A stretch of DNA of 64,000 nucleotides, from assembly GCA_003141315.1 (NCBI GenBank), contig PLLP01000008.1, forward strand, positions 62,001-126,000, read 5' to 3'. The stretch comes from Phycisphaerales bacterium. Its GTDB lineage: Bacteria; Planctomycetota; Phycisphaerae; Sedimentisphaerales; Anaerobacaceae. Shown piece after piece: positions 2,892 through 60,849 of this stretch (the first letter of the stretch is position 1; every line of letters begins with the position of its first letter). The notes beneath the pieces are model-generated. The model had not been told where the DNA came from and made no database searches. It was given only the letters and a program-made list of their open reading frames with translations. The position numbers and the translations under genes are program-made.

Positions 2892-5800
2892 CTAATGCCG
2901 GAAGTTACTTGGCCCTTGACACCATCGATTCCACCTGTGGTTCCGCTGGCAGTCATACCATGGCCAATGTCGCGGCCAGGGCCAACGACCCGGGCAGATT
3001 ACATTAACATCGTCAGTGCCATAGAAATACTGGCCGGTCTTCAATCGGCCTACAACAGCAAGTTCTACCTTTCCTTTGCCGTCAATAGCAGACATTAAAT
3101 CATCCTTATCGAACCAGGCCGAAATGGTCGTCTGCCACGCCCTGCATTTATATGCGTAGTCCCTGCTAATCCACATCCGCTCTGCCTTTATTTCACCCGG
3201 GTATAGCAAAAGCAGCTGTTGAGTATCTATCTGGTCTTTGGTAATCCCCTTGGGCAGCAGTATCGTTGTCATTATCTTTGGCAGGAAGCTTTTGCAGTTG
3301 AGCACCTTCGGCATCACACACAGGTTCGCCTTCACCGCCCCCGTAACCGTTATGTTCACATCGTTCGGCTCGGAATCGACTATACCGTCATTAACGATTA
3401 ACGAGATAACATACTGCCCGACAGGCAGTTCAATTTTTGGCTTTACGCCATTTGTGTCATAAGTATTACCATCGATTATCCAGCTCCACTTATAAGTAAG
3501 CGCATCGCCATCCGGGTCGCTTGAACCCGACCCATCCAGATTTACCTCCGCTATGCCGTCTATCCAGGCATAAACCGTCTGATCCGGACCAGCGTTGGCA
3601 GTTGGAACAACATTCAAAGGTTCATAAGATAAAGTTAAGGTATCTTCTGTTGTGCTCGCAGTTAAATCGGCAATAATACGCTCTCCTGTGGTAATTTGGC
3701 CTTCATAAATGTTACTCGTCACACTGTTACCATCCTGTACACCATTGATCGCCAAATGGAACGGGCCGTTGCTTGTGCCAAATAGTGCGATTCTGTAAGT
3801 ACCCGGATTCAAAACCGGCATATTGATTACTTGCTGGAATCCTTCATCGGGAGTGTTGCCATCGTATGGAACTTCGTTACCATCCGCATCGAGGATATTG
3901 AACGTCGTCCCTATGATATTCTGGTCTATTGAATTTGTCACATAGTTCGCACCTGTATGTTTGCCCGACGGGTCGTATAAATGAAGGTCTGCATGAGAGT
4001 TAAGCACAATAGACATAGCTATACCTTTTAATTGCAAAGATGTCCCTCGCCCCGTTGCTTCTTCAAGGGCAATGATTAATTCTGAGTCGTAACTATCGTG
4101 GTTTAGGTTCCAAGTTCCAACTCCACCGATATTCTGACCCAGTATTTGACTTCCAAAGAGAGCGTTTCTTGCTTTTGCTCTAAGACAAGCACTATCATTT
4201 ACCCAAGTTGTAACGGGAAAAAAATGATACGGTGGTATAAATGAATATACTTTTTCTAAATACCAAGGATTCATCCACGCATTTGCAATGGCAGCTTTTT
4301 GATTATTATCGACAAAATAAGACCATGATACATAATCTTCTGATCCATAGCCCCATTTACAATAAAACGGCATAGCTAATACTATTCGATTTGGTGGATA
4401 TTTCTTGGAGATGTATTCCAACGAACCTTTTATATCATATGGAGAGGCTATCCAAGGTCCCAATGGCAATATACCGGCATAATAATCATATCCCATTAAT
4501 ATACAGTAATCAGTAACGTCTTTCATTGTCTCTAGAGAATACCAATCAAGCTCATAGCACCCGACTGCAAATGTAATTAATTTATTTGGAAGTGCTATGC
4601 GTAGCGCTTTCATAAGATTACAGAATGCAGTAGAAGTTTCTTCTGAATTTGGAAACTCCCAATCTATATCAACTCCGTCATATTTTCCATCATTTATTGC
4701 TGTTTTAATAGAATTGACAAGTATATCGCTTTTGTTTTTATCGGTACATATAATGCCTAATTCGGTACTCTTTGCTTCTCCGTTTGCTCCCAATGAAAAA
4801 AGAACTTTACACTCAGGATTTTCCCTTTTGACCATATCTACATAATTATCTGGTAATCCTACTTTGAGATAATCATCACGGGAAGAATCTGCTTCTGCAC
4901 AAGAAGCAATGATTACGTGTGTACAGTGCTTATAACTATCAGGATTGCTTTTTCCGTAATTGTCATAACCGACGATTATAGGTTTTTGTTTTTTCGGCGG
5001 GGCTAATTTTATAAGATATACATCGTCATTCCCTGCACCAAAGGACGAGGTAGAGCCTGCGATTATGAATCCGCCATCAGAGGTTTGCTGGACTGACAAG
5101 CCCCCGTCAGAATTGCCTCCTCCAAAGGTCTTTTGCCACAAGCTATTTCCTGATGAATCGGTCTTTATAAAATACACATCGCTACTCCCTGCGCCAAAGG
5201 ACATAGTGTAGCCAGCGATTATGAATCCACCGTCAGAGGTTTGTTGAACAGAATAGCTACTGTCCCTATTGCTTCCACCGAAAGTCTTTTGCCACAAGAG
5301 ATTCCCAGCCGAATCCGTTTTTATAAGATATACATCGCTAGACCCTGCGCCAAATGACCAAGTGTAGCCAGCGATTATGAATCCGCCGTCAGAGGTCTGC
5401 TGAACAGAATAGCCAGAGTCATCACCGCTTCCGCCGAAAGTCTTTTGCCACAGCAGGTTTCCTGCTGAATCTGTCTTTGCAAGATATACATCGTAAAGAT
5501 AGAACTCGGGAGACCCTGTGACAAAGGCCCCGGTTTCGCCTGCGATTATGAATCCGCCGTCAGAGGTCTGCTGAACAGAATGGCCAAAGTCATTATCGCT
5601 TCCGCCAAATGTCTTTTGCCACAGCAGGCTTCCAGCCGAATCTGTTTTTACAAGATATACATCGCCCGACCCTGCGCCAAAGGACCAAGTGTAGCCAGCG
5701 ATTATGAATCCACCGTCAGAGGTTTGTTGAACCGAATAGCTACTGTCCCAATTGCTTCCGCCGAATGTCTTTTGCCAGAGGAGATTTCCTGCTGAATCTG

Positions 5801-6185
5801 TCTTTACAAGATATACATCGCTACTCCCTGCGCCAAAGGAAGAGGTTTCGCCTGCGATTATGAATCCGCCGTCAGAAGTCTGCTGAACAGAATAGCCAAA
5901 GTCATTATCGCTTCCGCCAAATGTCTTTTGCCAGAGCAGGTTTCCTGCTGAATCTGTCTTTACAAGATATACATCGTAAGACCCTGCGCCAAAGGAATGG
6001 GTCGTGCCTGCGATTATGAATCCGCCGTCTGTGGTCTGCTGAACAGAATAGCCCCAGTCCTCATCGCTTCCGCCGAATGTCTTTTCCCACTGGACAGCCG
6101 GCCCATCGGCTGAGGCAGACTGGGCTAAAACGCAGATAATAAGGCAGAATAAGAGATAAGTGATTGAATTTTTTGCCTCCTTCAC
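2892..6185 (-). CDS. Secreted GH18-like glycoside hydrolase with N-terminal seven-fold repeat and PKD-like domain
   Basis: I choose the GTG at 6185, which has GGAGG 7 bases upstream and opens directly into a signal peptide (ITYLLFCLIICVLAQSASA). That gives 1097 residues. Seven tandem repeats of about 59 residues follow (each with W-K-TFGG, SVQQTSDGGFIIAG, D-VYL-KTDS-GN), likely a beta-propeller. Around residues 400-750 is a GH18 TIM barrel with the catalytic signature DGVDIDWEF near 500-508, so the DxxDxDxE motif is intact. A PKD-like domain (NAGPDQTV, DGSGSSDPDGD) follows near 860-945, then a C-terminal domain of unknown role. The likely role is extracellular attack on chitin or another GlcNAc-containing polymer. 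An upstream ATG at 6242 lacks a comparable ribosome site. Confidence 0.85.
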   Translation of the reverse strand: MKEAKNSITYLLFCLIICVLAQSASADGPAVQWEKTFGGSDEDWGYSVQQTTDGGFIIAGTTHSFGAGSYDVYLVKTDSAGNLLWQKTFGGSDNDFGYSVQQTSDGGFIIAGETSSFGAGSSDVYLVKTDSAGNLLWQKTFGGSNWDSSYSVQQTSDGGFIIAGYTWSFGAGSGDVYLVKTDSAGSLLWQKTFGGSDNDFGHSVQQTSDGGFIIAGETGAFVTGSPEFYLYDVYLAKTDSAGNLLWQKTFGGSGDDSGYSVQQTSDGGFIIAGYTWSFGAGSSDVYLIKTDSAGNLLWQKTFGGSNRDSSYSVQQTSDGGFIIAGYTMSFGAGSSDVYFIKTDSSGNSLWQKTFGGGNSDGGLSVQQTSDGGFIIAGSTSSFGAGNDDVYLIKLAPPKKQKPIIVGYDNYGKSNPDSYKHCTHVIIASCAEADSSRDDYLKVGLPDNYVDMVKRENPECKVLFSLGANGEAKSTELGIICTDKNKSDILVNSIKTAINDGKYDGVDIDWEFPNSEETSTAFCNLMKALRIALPNKLITFAVGCYELDWYSLETMKDVTDYCILMGYDYYAGILPLGPWIASPYDIKGSLEYISKKYPPNRIVLAMPFYCKWGYGSEDYVSWSYFVDNNQKAAIANAWMNPWYLEKVYSFIPPYHFFPVTTWVNDSACLRAKARNALFGSQILGQNIGGVGTWNLNHDSYDSELIIALEEATGRGTSLQLKGIAMSIVLNSHADLHLYDPSGKHTGANYVTNSIDQNIIGTTFNILDADGNEVPYDGNTPDEGFQQVINMPVLNPGTYRIALFGTSNGPFHLAINGVQDGNSVTSNIYEGQITTGERIIADLTASTTEDTLTLSYEPLNVVPTANAGPDQTVYAWIDGIAEVNLDGSGSSDPDGDALTYKWSWIIDGNTYDTNGVKPKIELPVGQYVISLIVNDGIVDSEPNDVNITVTGAVKANLCVMPKVLNCKSFLPKIMTTILLPKGITKDQIDTQQLLLLYPGEIKAERMWISRDYAYKCRAWQTTISAWFDKDDLMSAIDGKGKVELAVVGRLKTGQYFYGTDDVNVICPGRWPWPRHWPWYDCQRNHRWNRWCQGPSNFRH
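4996..6110 (-). repeat. Seven in-frame tandem repeats inside the GH18-like gene
   Basis: Units of about 177 bp are strongly alike at DNA level, for example repeated GATTATGAATCCGCCGTCAG and GTCTTTTGCCA blocks. One unit (near 5450-5530) carries a short insertion. The high nucleotide similarity suggests recent amplification or ongoing gene conversion between units. Confidence 0.9.
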
Positions 6186-40769: not shown

Positions 40770-40943
40770 ATGGCGGCTATAGTTGATAAAAGTAAATGCA
40801 CCGGTTGTGAAACATGTGTTGGCGAATGTCCCAGCGAGGCAATTAAAATGGTCGATGAAAAGGCCGAAATCGACCCCGAACTCTGCATTGATTGCGGCGT
40901 ATGCGTCGATGCCTGCCCCGTTGAAGCCATCAGCCTCGAATAG
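40770..40943 (+). CDS. 2[4Fe-4S] ferredoxin
   Basis: This is a 57-residue protein with two CxxCxxCxxxCP clusters: CTGCETCVGECP and CIDCGVCVDACP. It is a clostridial-type low-potential electron carrier in the cytoplasm. The start is an ATG with AAAGGG just upstream; a TTG at 40746 is an unlikely alternative. Such ferredoxins point to anaerobic or fermentative metabolism, although that is an inference from one gene. Confidence 0.95.
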   Translation: MAAIVDKSKCTGCETCVGECPSEAIKMVDEKAEIDPELCIDCGVCVDACPVEAISLE

Positions 40944-41037
40944 TTTTAAGTTTTGAACTTTAAGTTTTTAGTTTTGAATTCGCCGGTTTGTTATCTCGAC
41001 TAAAAACTGTCAGCTATCTACTAACAACTTTGTTTGT

Positions 41038-42685: not shown

Positions 42686-42713
42686 CTTCGTGCCCTTCGT
42701 GTTCTTCGTGGTG
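42686..42713. repeat. CTTCGTG-type near-tandem repeat
   Basis: Three imperfect 9-10 base units built on CTTCGTG lie just past the dehydratase gene's stop on the plus strand. The same theme recurs near 49250, 49361, 50120 and 60771. Confidence 0.55.
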
Positions 42714-42720
42714 AAAAAAA

Positions 42721-48867: not shown

Positions 48868-49014
48868 CTAAATTTTACTCTCAGCGTCTTTTATTGCCTC
48901 GTCAATGTCTCTTGATTGAGCATTCAAAACCACTTTTTGTATTTGGTTAGGCTTAAAAGTTTTTTGCAATTCTAAAAATTTCTTAAAAGCACTTTTTGGG
49001 ATAACTAGGGACAG
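48868..49014 (-). pseudogene. 5'-truncated gene fragment
   Basis: A 48-codon open stretch with protein-like composition (VIPKSAFKKFLELQ ... VVLNAQSRDIDEAIKDAESK) ends at TAG (48868-48870), 18 bases before the small membrane protein's ATG. It has no start codon and is bounded on its 5' side by the repeat tail AGGTGACTGTCCCTA. It was probably a gene of the same operon whose 5' part was lost. The family is not recognised. Confidence 0.5.
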
Positions 49015-49168
49015 TCACCTATTATTTCCTTTTTCACTTTTTACTTCTCCCATAATTCTACCCAAACCGAATCCTTTTTCAACGACAAAACTTTCGGAGA
49101 CAAACCGTCCTAACTCTTTCGCCCTCAGTTTATCAGTGAAATTACTCCGAAGCGGGCTGGCGAGGCAT
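49015..49168 (-). pseudogene. Internally deleted transposase-like remnant
   Basis: On the minus strand GGGAGG precedes ATG (49166-49168) and MPRQPAS, which resembles the start of REP-associated Y1-type (IS200-like) transposases. The frame is then broken; in another frame an open stretch ends in ELGRFVSESFVVEKGFGLGR and TGA (49015-49017). The tail AGGTGACTGTCCCTA resembles sequence often flanking such elements. The identity is inferred from these short matches. Confidence 0.45.
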
Positions 49169-49201: not shown

Positions 49202-49389
49202 CAGAATACAGAAGACAGAATACAGAAGTCAGAATAAAAAACAAAAACTCTCTGCGTCCTTCGTGTTCTCTGTGGCTAAAGTAGTCGTTAGTATTTAGTA
49301 TTCGGTATTTAGTTTAAAAAAGAATCTGTGAAAATCTGCGTTAATCTGTGGTTAAAAAAATCTCTGTGTCCTCTGTGCTCTCTGTGGCT
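49202..49389. repeat. Mosaic of five different near-tandem repeat motifs
   Basis: In order: CAGAATACAGAAGACAGAAT (49207-49237 region), CTCTGCGTCCTTCGTGTTCT (49249-49275), TTAGTATTTAGTATTCGGTA (49288-49313), AATCTGTGAAAATCTGCGTT (49323-49353) and CTCTGTGTCCTCTGTGCTCT (49361-49389). Each is made of imperfect 7-13 base units. No gene is present. Confidence 0.7.
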
Positions 49390-49393
49390 TAAT

Positions 49394-49978: not shown

Positions 49979-50017
49979 ACAGACTCCAGACCCAGGACAA
50001 CAGACCAACGATAAATT

Positions 50018-50191
50018 CACCGCAGAGGCCGCAAAGACCGCAGAGAATCTTTCCTGTACGCTACACGCTATTTTTGATATTAAACCAGAAACTCCCCCTT
50101 TAGAAAAGATTTATCTCTCCCTCCTTTGCCCCTTTGTGCCTTTTTACCTTTGCGCCTCTGTCCCTCTGTGCCTATTATGCCTTTGTCCCTT
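50018..50191. repeat. GCAGAG- and CTTTGTGCC-type repeats
   Basis: 50018-50047 holds CACCGCAGAGGCCGCAAAGA-type units, the reverse sense of the CTCTGCGG motif. 50120-50191 holds a pyrimidine-rich array of CTTTGTGCC / CCTCTGTGCC units running up to the LysR gene's stop. Confidence 0.6.
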
Positions 50192-50198
50192 AATTTTT

Positions 50199-51080
50199 TT
50201 ATACCTTTTTCTGCAGGACGTCCACAAAGGCCTTGACGGCGTTCGAGCGAATCGCATTCTTGCGAACTATTATACCCGTCGGCCTGATAAAATTCTCATT
50301 CGAAAATGGTATCGCACGCAATGAGCCGCTGCTCACCTCGGCAATAATCGTCGTTCGCGGCAATATGCTCACGCCGACGCCTATCTCCACCGCCCGCTTG
50401 ATTGTCTCGACGTTATCGAATTCCATCACGGGCCGAACCGTTATCCCGTACCGCTGCAAAATCCCGTCTATCCACAGCCGGCTCGGAACATCGGATTCGA
50501 ACGCCACAAAAGGCTCGAACTGTATCCTGTGCATTTCTATTTCAGGTTCTGCCGCAAGCTGATGTTTCGGGCTGCATACGAAATCCAGCGGCTCATCTTC
50601 GAAATCATAAACGTCCAGCCTTTTGTCTTTTTTGGGAACTGCCACAAGGCCGATATCGAAATCGCCCCCCAATACAAGCTCATAAACTTTCGAAGGACTG
50701 AAATACTCGATATGAACATTGACCTTCGGATTTCTTACCATAAATCTTTTTACATAAGCCGGCAGCGTGTGCATTCCTATACTGTAAATGGCCGCCACAT
50801 TTATTCTTGTTTGTCCGCTCGACTTTAGCTCGTTCAATTCCACCTTAAGCTGCTCATACCGGTCAATCATCTCCCGAAAGGCGCGGTGCAGAACCTGCCC
50901 TTCAACCGTCAGCTCTATCGGCCTTTTTTTGCGATTTACCAATTGGCAATTATACTGAAGCTCCAGCTGCGCAAGCTGCTGAGAAACCGCGGACTGGCTC
51001 ATGAAATTTTTTTCCGCAGTCTTCGAAAAACTGCGTAATTCAACCAAATCGCAGAAAACCTTGAGGATTTCAATATGCAT
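50199..51080 (-). CDS. LysR-family transcription regulator
   Basis: This 293-residue protein has an N-terminal winged HTH (LRSFSKTAEKNFMSQSAVSQQLAQLE, here residues 14-41) and a periplasmic-binding-like effector domain from about 90 (INVAAIYSIGMHTLPAYV). GGGGAAG lies 7 bases before the ATG. It is transcribed divergently from a glutamate dehydrogenase gene, 166 bases apart, the usual arrangement for a LysR regulator and its target. The effector is unknown. Confidence 0.92.
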   Translation of the reverse strand: MHIEILKVFCDLVELRSFSKTAEKNFMSQSAVSQQLAQLELQYNCQLVNRKKRPIELTVEGQVLHRAFREMIDRYEQLKVELNELKSSGQTRINVAAIYSIGMHTLPAYVKRFMVRNPKVNVHIEYFSPSKVYELVLGGDFDIGLVAVPKKDKRLDVYDFEDEPLDFVCSPKHQLAAEPEIEMHRIQFEPFVAFESDVPSRLWIDGILQRYGITVRPVMEFDNVETIKRAVEIGVGVSILPRTTIIAEVSSGSLRAIPFSNENFIRPTGIIVRKNAIRSNAVKAFVDVLQKKV

Positions 51081-60770: not shown

Positions 60771-60849
60771 CTTTGTGCCTTTGCCCCTCTGTGCCTATTT
60801 TTCTCAGCATTCTCCGCGGTGAATCTGTCTTGAGTCTTAGGTCTTGCGT
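60771..60849. repeat. CTTTGTGCC / CTCCGCGGTG / CTTGAGTCTTAGG repeats next to dnaA
   Basis: A third copy of the pyrimidine-rich array lies at 60771-60798, followed by TCTCCGCGGTGAATCTG and then a TCTTGAGTCTTAGGTCTTGC segment. The last resembles, in reverse, the AGACTCCAGACCCAGGACAA segment at 49981-50005. It touches the dnaA stop. Confidence 0.55.

Follow-up and report, generated by a model that had tools for sequence, protein, structure and literature searches.

Arrays of short tandem units between genes as probable ends of two classes of very small insertion elements

The stretch of DNA analysed here (the window, 64 kb; G000:C15:62001-126000) comes from a 2.35-Mb draft genome and harbors a mosaic of five arrays of imperfect short units within 190 bp of intergenic DNA, one of which borders the stop codon of a HAD-family gene (Table 1). 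An earlier note, made from the letters of the window, had described five short-unit motifs lying between genes at this place together with related arrays at 42686, 50018-50191 and 60771-60849, and all of these were found again. On the minus strand, starting at the HAD stop codon, the mosaic comprises left arms of what are described below as GxxExxY elements, with CACAGAG units, then CACAGATT units, then mixed CACAGAG/CACGAAG units (the array at 49250-49280 is a left arm in this reading), and S23 heptamer arrays (TTAGTnn and CAGAAnn) are interspersed among them. All four array sites that the note had named start within about 8 nt of a stop codon, that of a fabA-like, HAD, LysR or dnaA gene. Searches of the 64-kb window gave neither an S23 nor a PDDEXK_3 gene, and a search against Rfam gave no known RNA at the mosaic. 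Elsewhere in the window a c-di-AMP riboswitch (Rfam RF00379; 762-896, minus strand) and a 156-bp tandem repeat of 6.8 copies (5008-6090, within a long minus-strand ORF) were observed.

Table 1. Arrays and neighboring genes in the window (positions counted from its first base)
Position	Strand	Feature	Remark
40942-40975	+	Heptamer array AGTTTTA, probably S23-type	
42686-42714	-	Solo GxxExxY-type array CTTCGTGCCCTTCGTGTTCTTCGTGGTGA	Few nt past stop codon of FabA-like gene
49202-49236	+	S23-type end array, CAGAAnn x5 (CAGAATA/CAGAAGA), solo, without nearby gene	Word also brackets S23 genes in L363 and on cyanobacterial plasmids
49250-49280	-	GxxExxY-type end array CTCTGCG-TC-CTTCGTG-TT-CTCTGTGG-CTAAA	Words are those of GxxExxY element arms
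49282-49314	+	S23-type end array TAGTCGTTAGTATTTAGTATTCGGTATTTAGT, heptamer TTAGTnn (TTAGTAT)	Identical array brackets an S23 gene of the same genome
49323-49356	-	GxxExxY-type end array AATCTGTG-AA-AATCTGCG-TT-AATCTGTGGTTAAA	Arms bracket GxxExxY genes of the same genome (C16:99118-99453, C18:16824-17168)
49362-49392	-	GxxExxY-type end array CTCTGTG-TC-CTCTGTG-CT-CTCTGTGGCTTAA	Starts directly after HAD gene stop codon
49394-50020	-	HAD-family hydrolase gene	Stop codon adjoins mosaic
50017-50046	+	TTCACCGCAGAGGCCGCAAAGACCGCAGAG, right partner (minus-strand view) of probable gene-less array pair (50017-50193)	
50120-50193	-	GGCACAAAGG/GGCACAGAGG units, left partner of the same probable pair	Few nt past stop codon of LysR-family gene
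50199-51080	-	LysR-family regulator gene	Stop codon adjoins array pair
60771-60849	-	Second mosaic past dnaA stop codon: heptamers (CAAGACCTAAGACTCAAGAC), then GxxExxY-type CACCGCGGAG... and GGCACAGAGGGGCAAAGGCACAAAG	
62438-62474	+	Heptamer array TTTGATA/TTTGAAA, probably S23-type	

When searched against the 2.35-Mb genome at E <= 0.001, a 301-bp stretch bearing the mosaic gives 39 matches, one of which is the stretch itself, and the motifs are more frequent than chance would give, since the pattern CTCTGTGNNCTCTGTGNNCTCTGTGG, with 22 fixed bases, occurs 16 times there and the same pattern reversed does not occur. The arrays are almost all intergenic in a 0.83-Mb sample of this genome. CTCTGTGNNCTCTGTGNNCTCTGTGG is present in 59 of the 99 genomes searched (this one and its relatives), and counts of B-pattern arrays are sparse in the relatives. 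The array pattern has matches in IMG/VR and was found in at least 117 stretches of species-representative genomes from at least 22 named phyla; the matches listed include Methanosarcinales archaea, one Streptomyces, Chlamydiae, Chloroflexi and Cyanobacteria, of which single cross-phylum cases could be binning errors because many of these genomes are metagenome-assembled. Among the matches listed, 95 of 158 exact arms have an outward-facing inverted partner upstream within 700 bp, compared to 7 on the wrong side, and the median interior of the paired arms is 52 bp. Units are separated by just 0-4 variable bases, and CRISPR arrays, in which unique spacers tens of bases long separate identical repeats, were rejected on this ground. 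Two bases between the units vary freely, and their identity is not paired between the arms (42 of 124 compared to 43.6 expected, no signal). Heptamer arrays of the same genome also have REP-like hairpins (TCCGCC...GGCGGA) within or next to them, for example in L047:10505-10680 and L041:1600-1790, and 98 such hairpins were counted in the 0.83-Mb sample together with added loci; other over-represented words in the sample are TGAGCTTGTCGAA, GTGTGGCGGAC, ACCCCGTTAGAG and AGCCACATAAGCGTAGT, and the window carries at 49008-49025 the sequence GGGACAGTCACCTATTA, which we take to be frequent near REP-type transposases.

Where an array pair brackets a gene, the whole element consists of an array of about 3-6 imperfect short units, one gene and the same array inverted. 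In Omnitrophota (L138) and Acidobacteria (L153), the bracketed ORF of 123-125 aa is GxxExxY (TIGR04256). The genome of the window possesses five PDDEXK_3 genes, three of them with clear inverted arms of one word each (CTTCGTG on C9, AATCTGTG on C18 and C16), a fourth embedded in several arrays (C20) and a fifth with an array on one side only (C10). This family left the heptamers TTAGTAT and CAGAAnn unaccounted for, and PF05635 (23S-IVP/S23) was therefore tested as a second one, a choice guided by its known presence in intervening sequences of rRNA; an S23 gene of this genome (G000:C16:88804-89115) indeed lies between inverted TTAGTAT arrays. Element ORFs were found with HMMs built in this analysis, on gene calls that are simple ORF calls. 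The two arms of one element match each other far better than permuted arms, with a mean of 35.6 compared to 20.0 (sd 0.64) for GxxExxY (n = 91) and of 33.0 compared to 17.9 (sd 0.66) for S23 (n = 48). With a score threshold that 5% of 507 control ORFs from the same loci pass, arms were detected for 64/91 GxxExxY and 34/48 S23 genes, about 30% of the genes being without detectable matching arms. No transposase was seen inside the elements, and no GxxExxY was found in phages or in IMG/VR. The right array runs into the 3' end of the element ORF in L385 and L529, and is therefore translated in part or provides the stop codon.

Each gene family has its own characteristic unit length. Among 60 GxxExxY elements the unit measures 9 (30 elements), 10 (23) or 8 bases (6), whereas 30 of 34 S23 elements have a unit of 7, with highly diverse words (GCGTAnn, TTAGTnn, AGGGTnn, CAGAAnn, AGTGAAA). 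The word, in turn, is tied to the protein lineage: on a tree of 62 GxxExxY proteins it changes 12 times compared to 31.8 times when shuffled (0/200 shufflings as low), and -AG words prevail in one of the two deepest supported groups and -AT words in the other, one Bacteroides subclade being the main exception. Arm and protein similarity are correlated (r = 0.38 and 0.27), each value exceeding all permutations. Relatedness alone is expected to yield part of this agreement, which fits an array and a gene travelling together. Arrays built of CTCTGTG, CTTCGTG or AATCTGTG belong to the ends of GxxExxY (PDDEXK_3) elements, and those built of CAGAAnn or TTAGTnn to the ends of S23 (23S-IVP, four-helix-bundle) elements. 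The five motifs of the mosaic, which had been called unrelated, are accordingly three ends of one element class and two of the other. Arrays without a gene are far commoner, with 3 GxxExxY and no S23 matches in the 117 array-pattern loci among the matches listed. Array number correlates with the number of GxxExxY genes (rho 0.56) and also with that of S23 genes (rho 0.45), and since it tracks both, the array-gene correlation is confounded by the general element load.

The best evidence for insertion comes from cyanobacterial plasmids, where three defined sites occur with and without S23 elements in backbones 91-98% identical. At the first site, which occurs in Trichormus and Nostoc linckia plasmids, the empty form reads AAAAAGTAATTAACAAATAAATATG in L537, and both L538 and L539 differ from it by one base, the backbones being about 98% identical; in L529 the site is filled as AAAAAGTAAT, the element (AAATCAGAATTCAGAAG...S23...GAGTTCTTCTTTG) and TAATTAACAAATAAATATG, L536 is filled likewise, and L540 harbors an array and a truncated S23 remnant. 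The second reads GGTTCTAGGTTATGCAAATC in L543 and L544, and in L530 (backbones 91-96% identical) GGTTCTA is followed by the element (AATCAGGAGTC...GGATTCTGA) and TTATGCAAATC. The third (GTGAGGTAATGGGATTTG), in which stop and start codons overlap, is filled in L544 as GTGAGGTAATG, the element (TTAGGGGAAAAGGG...S23...) and ATGGGATTTG. Each filled site keeps the flanking reading frames intact, and the target-site duplication is not constant among the three (TAAT, ATG, or loss of GG). The same plasmids are polymorphic for a gene-less pair (L541 compared to L542 and L543) and for a solo array (L541-L543 compared to L530 and L544), so that the derivatives of the elements include truncated copies, pairs that lack a gene, and solo arrays of the kind present in the window.

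For GxxExxY, presence and absence were observed at one site, the spacer beside radA in Bacteroides, which holds a full element in some species, is empty (down to 3 bp) in others and retains a 50-bp array remnant alone in L416. These spacers are too diverged for exact junctions, and mobility is less directly shown than for S23 because the elements at the radA site look vertically inherited. At a second Bacteroides site, L488 carries CACAGAG words and L503 and L506 carry CACAGATT words, the words of these orthologous pairs differing in both arms at once while the hairpin interiors are similar (as judged by eye). Plain insertion is no explanation for a word change in both arms at one site, which suggests that arrays are rewritten or replaced; such rewriting might proceed, speculatively, through cutting and repair from another copy. 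Moreover, just 2 related pairs were found among the interiors of 12 array pairs in B. finegoldii, most being unrelated, and therefore the array and not the whole element may be what spreads.

The elements follow the reading direction of their surroundings. The upstream gene lies on the strand of the element ORF in 77/84 cases for GxxExxY and 43/46 for S23, and when both flanks agree the ORF is co-directional with them in 63/63 and 32/33 cases respectively; as a baseline, the middle gene agrees with its flanks in 364/429 cases in the genome of the window. The array match starts at a median of 7 bases (GxxExxY) or 1 base (S23) past the upstream stop codon. This near-stop rule is weaker for the gene-less A/B arrays of the own-genome sample than for whole elements, 6/26 of these having a stop codon at most 15 bases away and none a start codon so near. 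Placement at stop codons may reflect targeting or selection against other insertions. Among individual loci, S23 genes were seen between cas10 and cmr3 (L527), cas6 and cas4 (L525) and nrdB and nrdA (L531), and a GxxExxY gene between fabD and fabG (L385).

The invariant residues of 27 GxxExxY proteins (E29, D69, E79, K81, Q93 and Y97) match the D...ExK motif with the conserved E and the QxxxY of PD-(D/E)XK nucleases, and E29, D69, E79-x-K81 and Q93-x3-Y97 form the pattern of the RecB/Cas4 type. The AlphaFold model is of low confidence (pLDDT 47; two sequences run), and a sequence search of the PDB gave no relative. For S23, a comparison with TRAP, which binds its triplets one per ring subunit, makes it an attractive idea that an S23 ring may bind one heptad per subunit. 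Solved structures of S23 relatives contain five chains in each entry (2gsc, 2rld), and the Xanthomonas protein has been reported as a pentameric ring (PMC4990558).

Taken together, the arrays are likely to be the ends, detached or left behind, of very small insertion elements that fall into two classes. An element of this kind inserts between genes, usually near the upstream stop codon and co-directionally with the operon, and by analogy with RAYT proteins and REPINs each protein may recognise its own array units and so drive the spread of arrays; the movement could take place at either the DNA or the RNA level. The mosaic itself appears to be a stack of element remnants. A composite module of TTAGTnn with AATCTGTG 5-7 bp further on recurs in about 7 or more copies in the genome, and therefore part of the mosaic seems to have been copied as a unit around it. 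The suggestion of the earlier note that the arrays form a family of undescribed intergenic elements was essentially right, save that there are two classes and not one.

The same note had offered slippage or template switching, which would make short tandem repeats in unconstrained intergenic DNA with no element involved. Imperfect units and variable unit number agree with such a process, and Coxiella strains do differ by one heptamer (PMC4990558), but identical patterns of 22 fixed bases in at least 22 named phyla, the lack of matches to the reversed pattern, the outward inverted pairing, the bracketing of two gene families each with its own unit length, words that follow the protein tree, and insertion as a unit at polymorphic sites refute it as the main cause and leave it very improbable; unit-number variation within an array may still come from slippage. 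Scarcely credible is the idea that a nucleoid or DNA-repair factor of the host binds the arrays and that their words have converged: the words do recur across phyla, yet they differ within one genome, fit the neighboring gene and are missing at orthologous sites in relatives.

Two further explanations take the bracketed gene into account. The arrays might be operators or RNA-processing sites, the gene with its arms being a regulatory or RNA-decoupling cassette whose movement is incidental. That the element ORFs are co-directional with the operon and close behind stop codons, that the arms are able to pair as a stem and that RNase III cuts the Coxiella intervening sequence, which is an S23 element, out of the RNA (PMC4990558) all speak for it. 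However, the stem is not kept up in full, as spacer dinucleotides pair at chance level, solo arrays and gene-less pairs are numerous, and patchy presence among close plasmids points to insertion, which makes this account rather unlikely. We give a lower probability, and regard as unlikely indeed, a MITE-like arrangement in which an unrelated transposase moves the ends in trans and carries the GxxExxY or S23 gene along as a passenger; the excess of gene-less loci and the inconstant duplication at the junctions agree with it, but no transposase was seen within the elements, and the fit between word and protein tree as well as the family-dependent unit length would be left unexplained. Beyond the reading of the arrays as ends of two element classes, we tentatively consider a wider one, possible though short of probable, in which these are minimal selfish elements that span bacteria and archaea: a small protein, unrelated between classes (PD-(D/E)XK nuclease-like or an S23 ring protein), would act on tandem-unit ends with a unit length set by the protein family, the word would change in step in both arms with arrays actively rewritten to match the protein, and the short tandemly repeated repetitive sequences (STRRs) of cyanobacteria, 23S intervening sequences and many unexplained intergenic repeats would be products.

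Known systems share some of these traits. REPs and REPINs likewise have inverted copies of a short sequence on both sides of their RAYT genes, and this sequence is also dispersed in spacers, often as inverted doublets, with a word tied to the protein lineage; here, by contrast, the gene is GxxExxY (TIGR04256) or S23 (PF05635) and not an HUH (Y1) transposase, and the ends are direct tandem units and not a palindromic hairpin with a GTAG/CGTC tag. MITEs have terminal inverted repeats and gene-less inverted pairs in spacers, but the interiors found here are mostly non-homologous, no IS parent was found and the ends consist of tandem units. The STRRs of cyanobacteria are intergenic imperfect heptamers as well, and such arrays flank S23 genes on Nostoc-group plasmids; to our knowledge STRRs have been described only as repeats, without a gene or mechanism. 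Intergenic TAACTGA heptamer arrays, patchy across phyla (Beggiatoaceae, Cyanobacteria, Bacteroidetes) and without a known mechanism, have been proposed to act in translational regulation (PMC4679880).

The closest likeness to the S23 class is found in the intervening sequences of 23S rRNA (Coxiella, Leptospira, Brucella), which are known to carry S23 and heptamers, GACAGAT beside the ORF in Coxiella, in about 430 bp (PMC4990558). They share with the elements described here the S23-family gene, the terminal inverted repeats (34/48 S23 elements here) and the sense orientation. Unlike them, the annotated elements examined here lie between protein genes and not in a 23S rRNA helix, carry tandem-unit arrays on both sides with very many words, and in the GxxExxY class contain an unrelated gene; moreover, the S23 elements carry a PF05635 gene whereas the solo arrays of the window do not. 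A search of the open-access literature found no prior report of GxxExxY elements, of the unit-length rule or of the link to cyanobacterial heptamers, and nothing useful that matched the array motifs; GxxExxY is named in only two open-access papers, in one of them just in passing.

Intergenic repeats that over decades have been reported separately, such as the cyanobacterial heptamers and those of the Coxiella intervening sequence, may share one kind of cause, perhaps together with the TAACTGA repeats of Beggiatoaceae and the "multicopy nucleotide sequences" of Geobacter. GxxExxY and S23, two common genes of unknown role, thereby get a concrete candidate job, and the readable code of 7 compared to 9-10 bases per unit makes recognition between protein and array directly testable. 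The annotation of spacers that bear such arrays should change.
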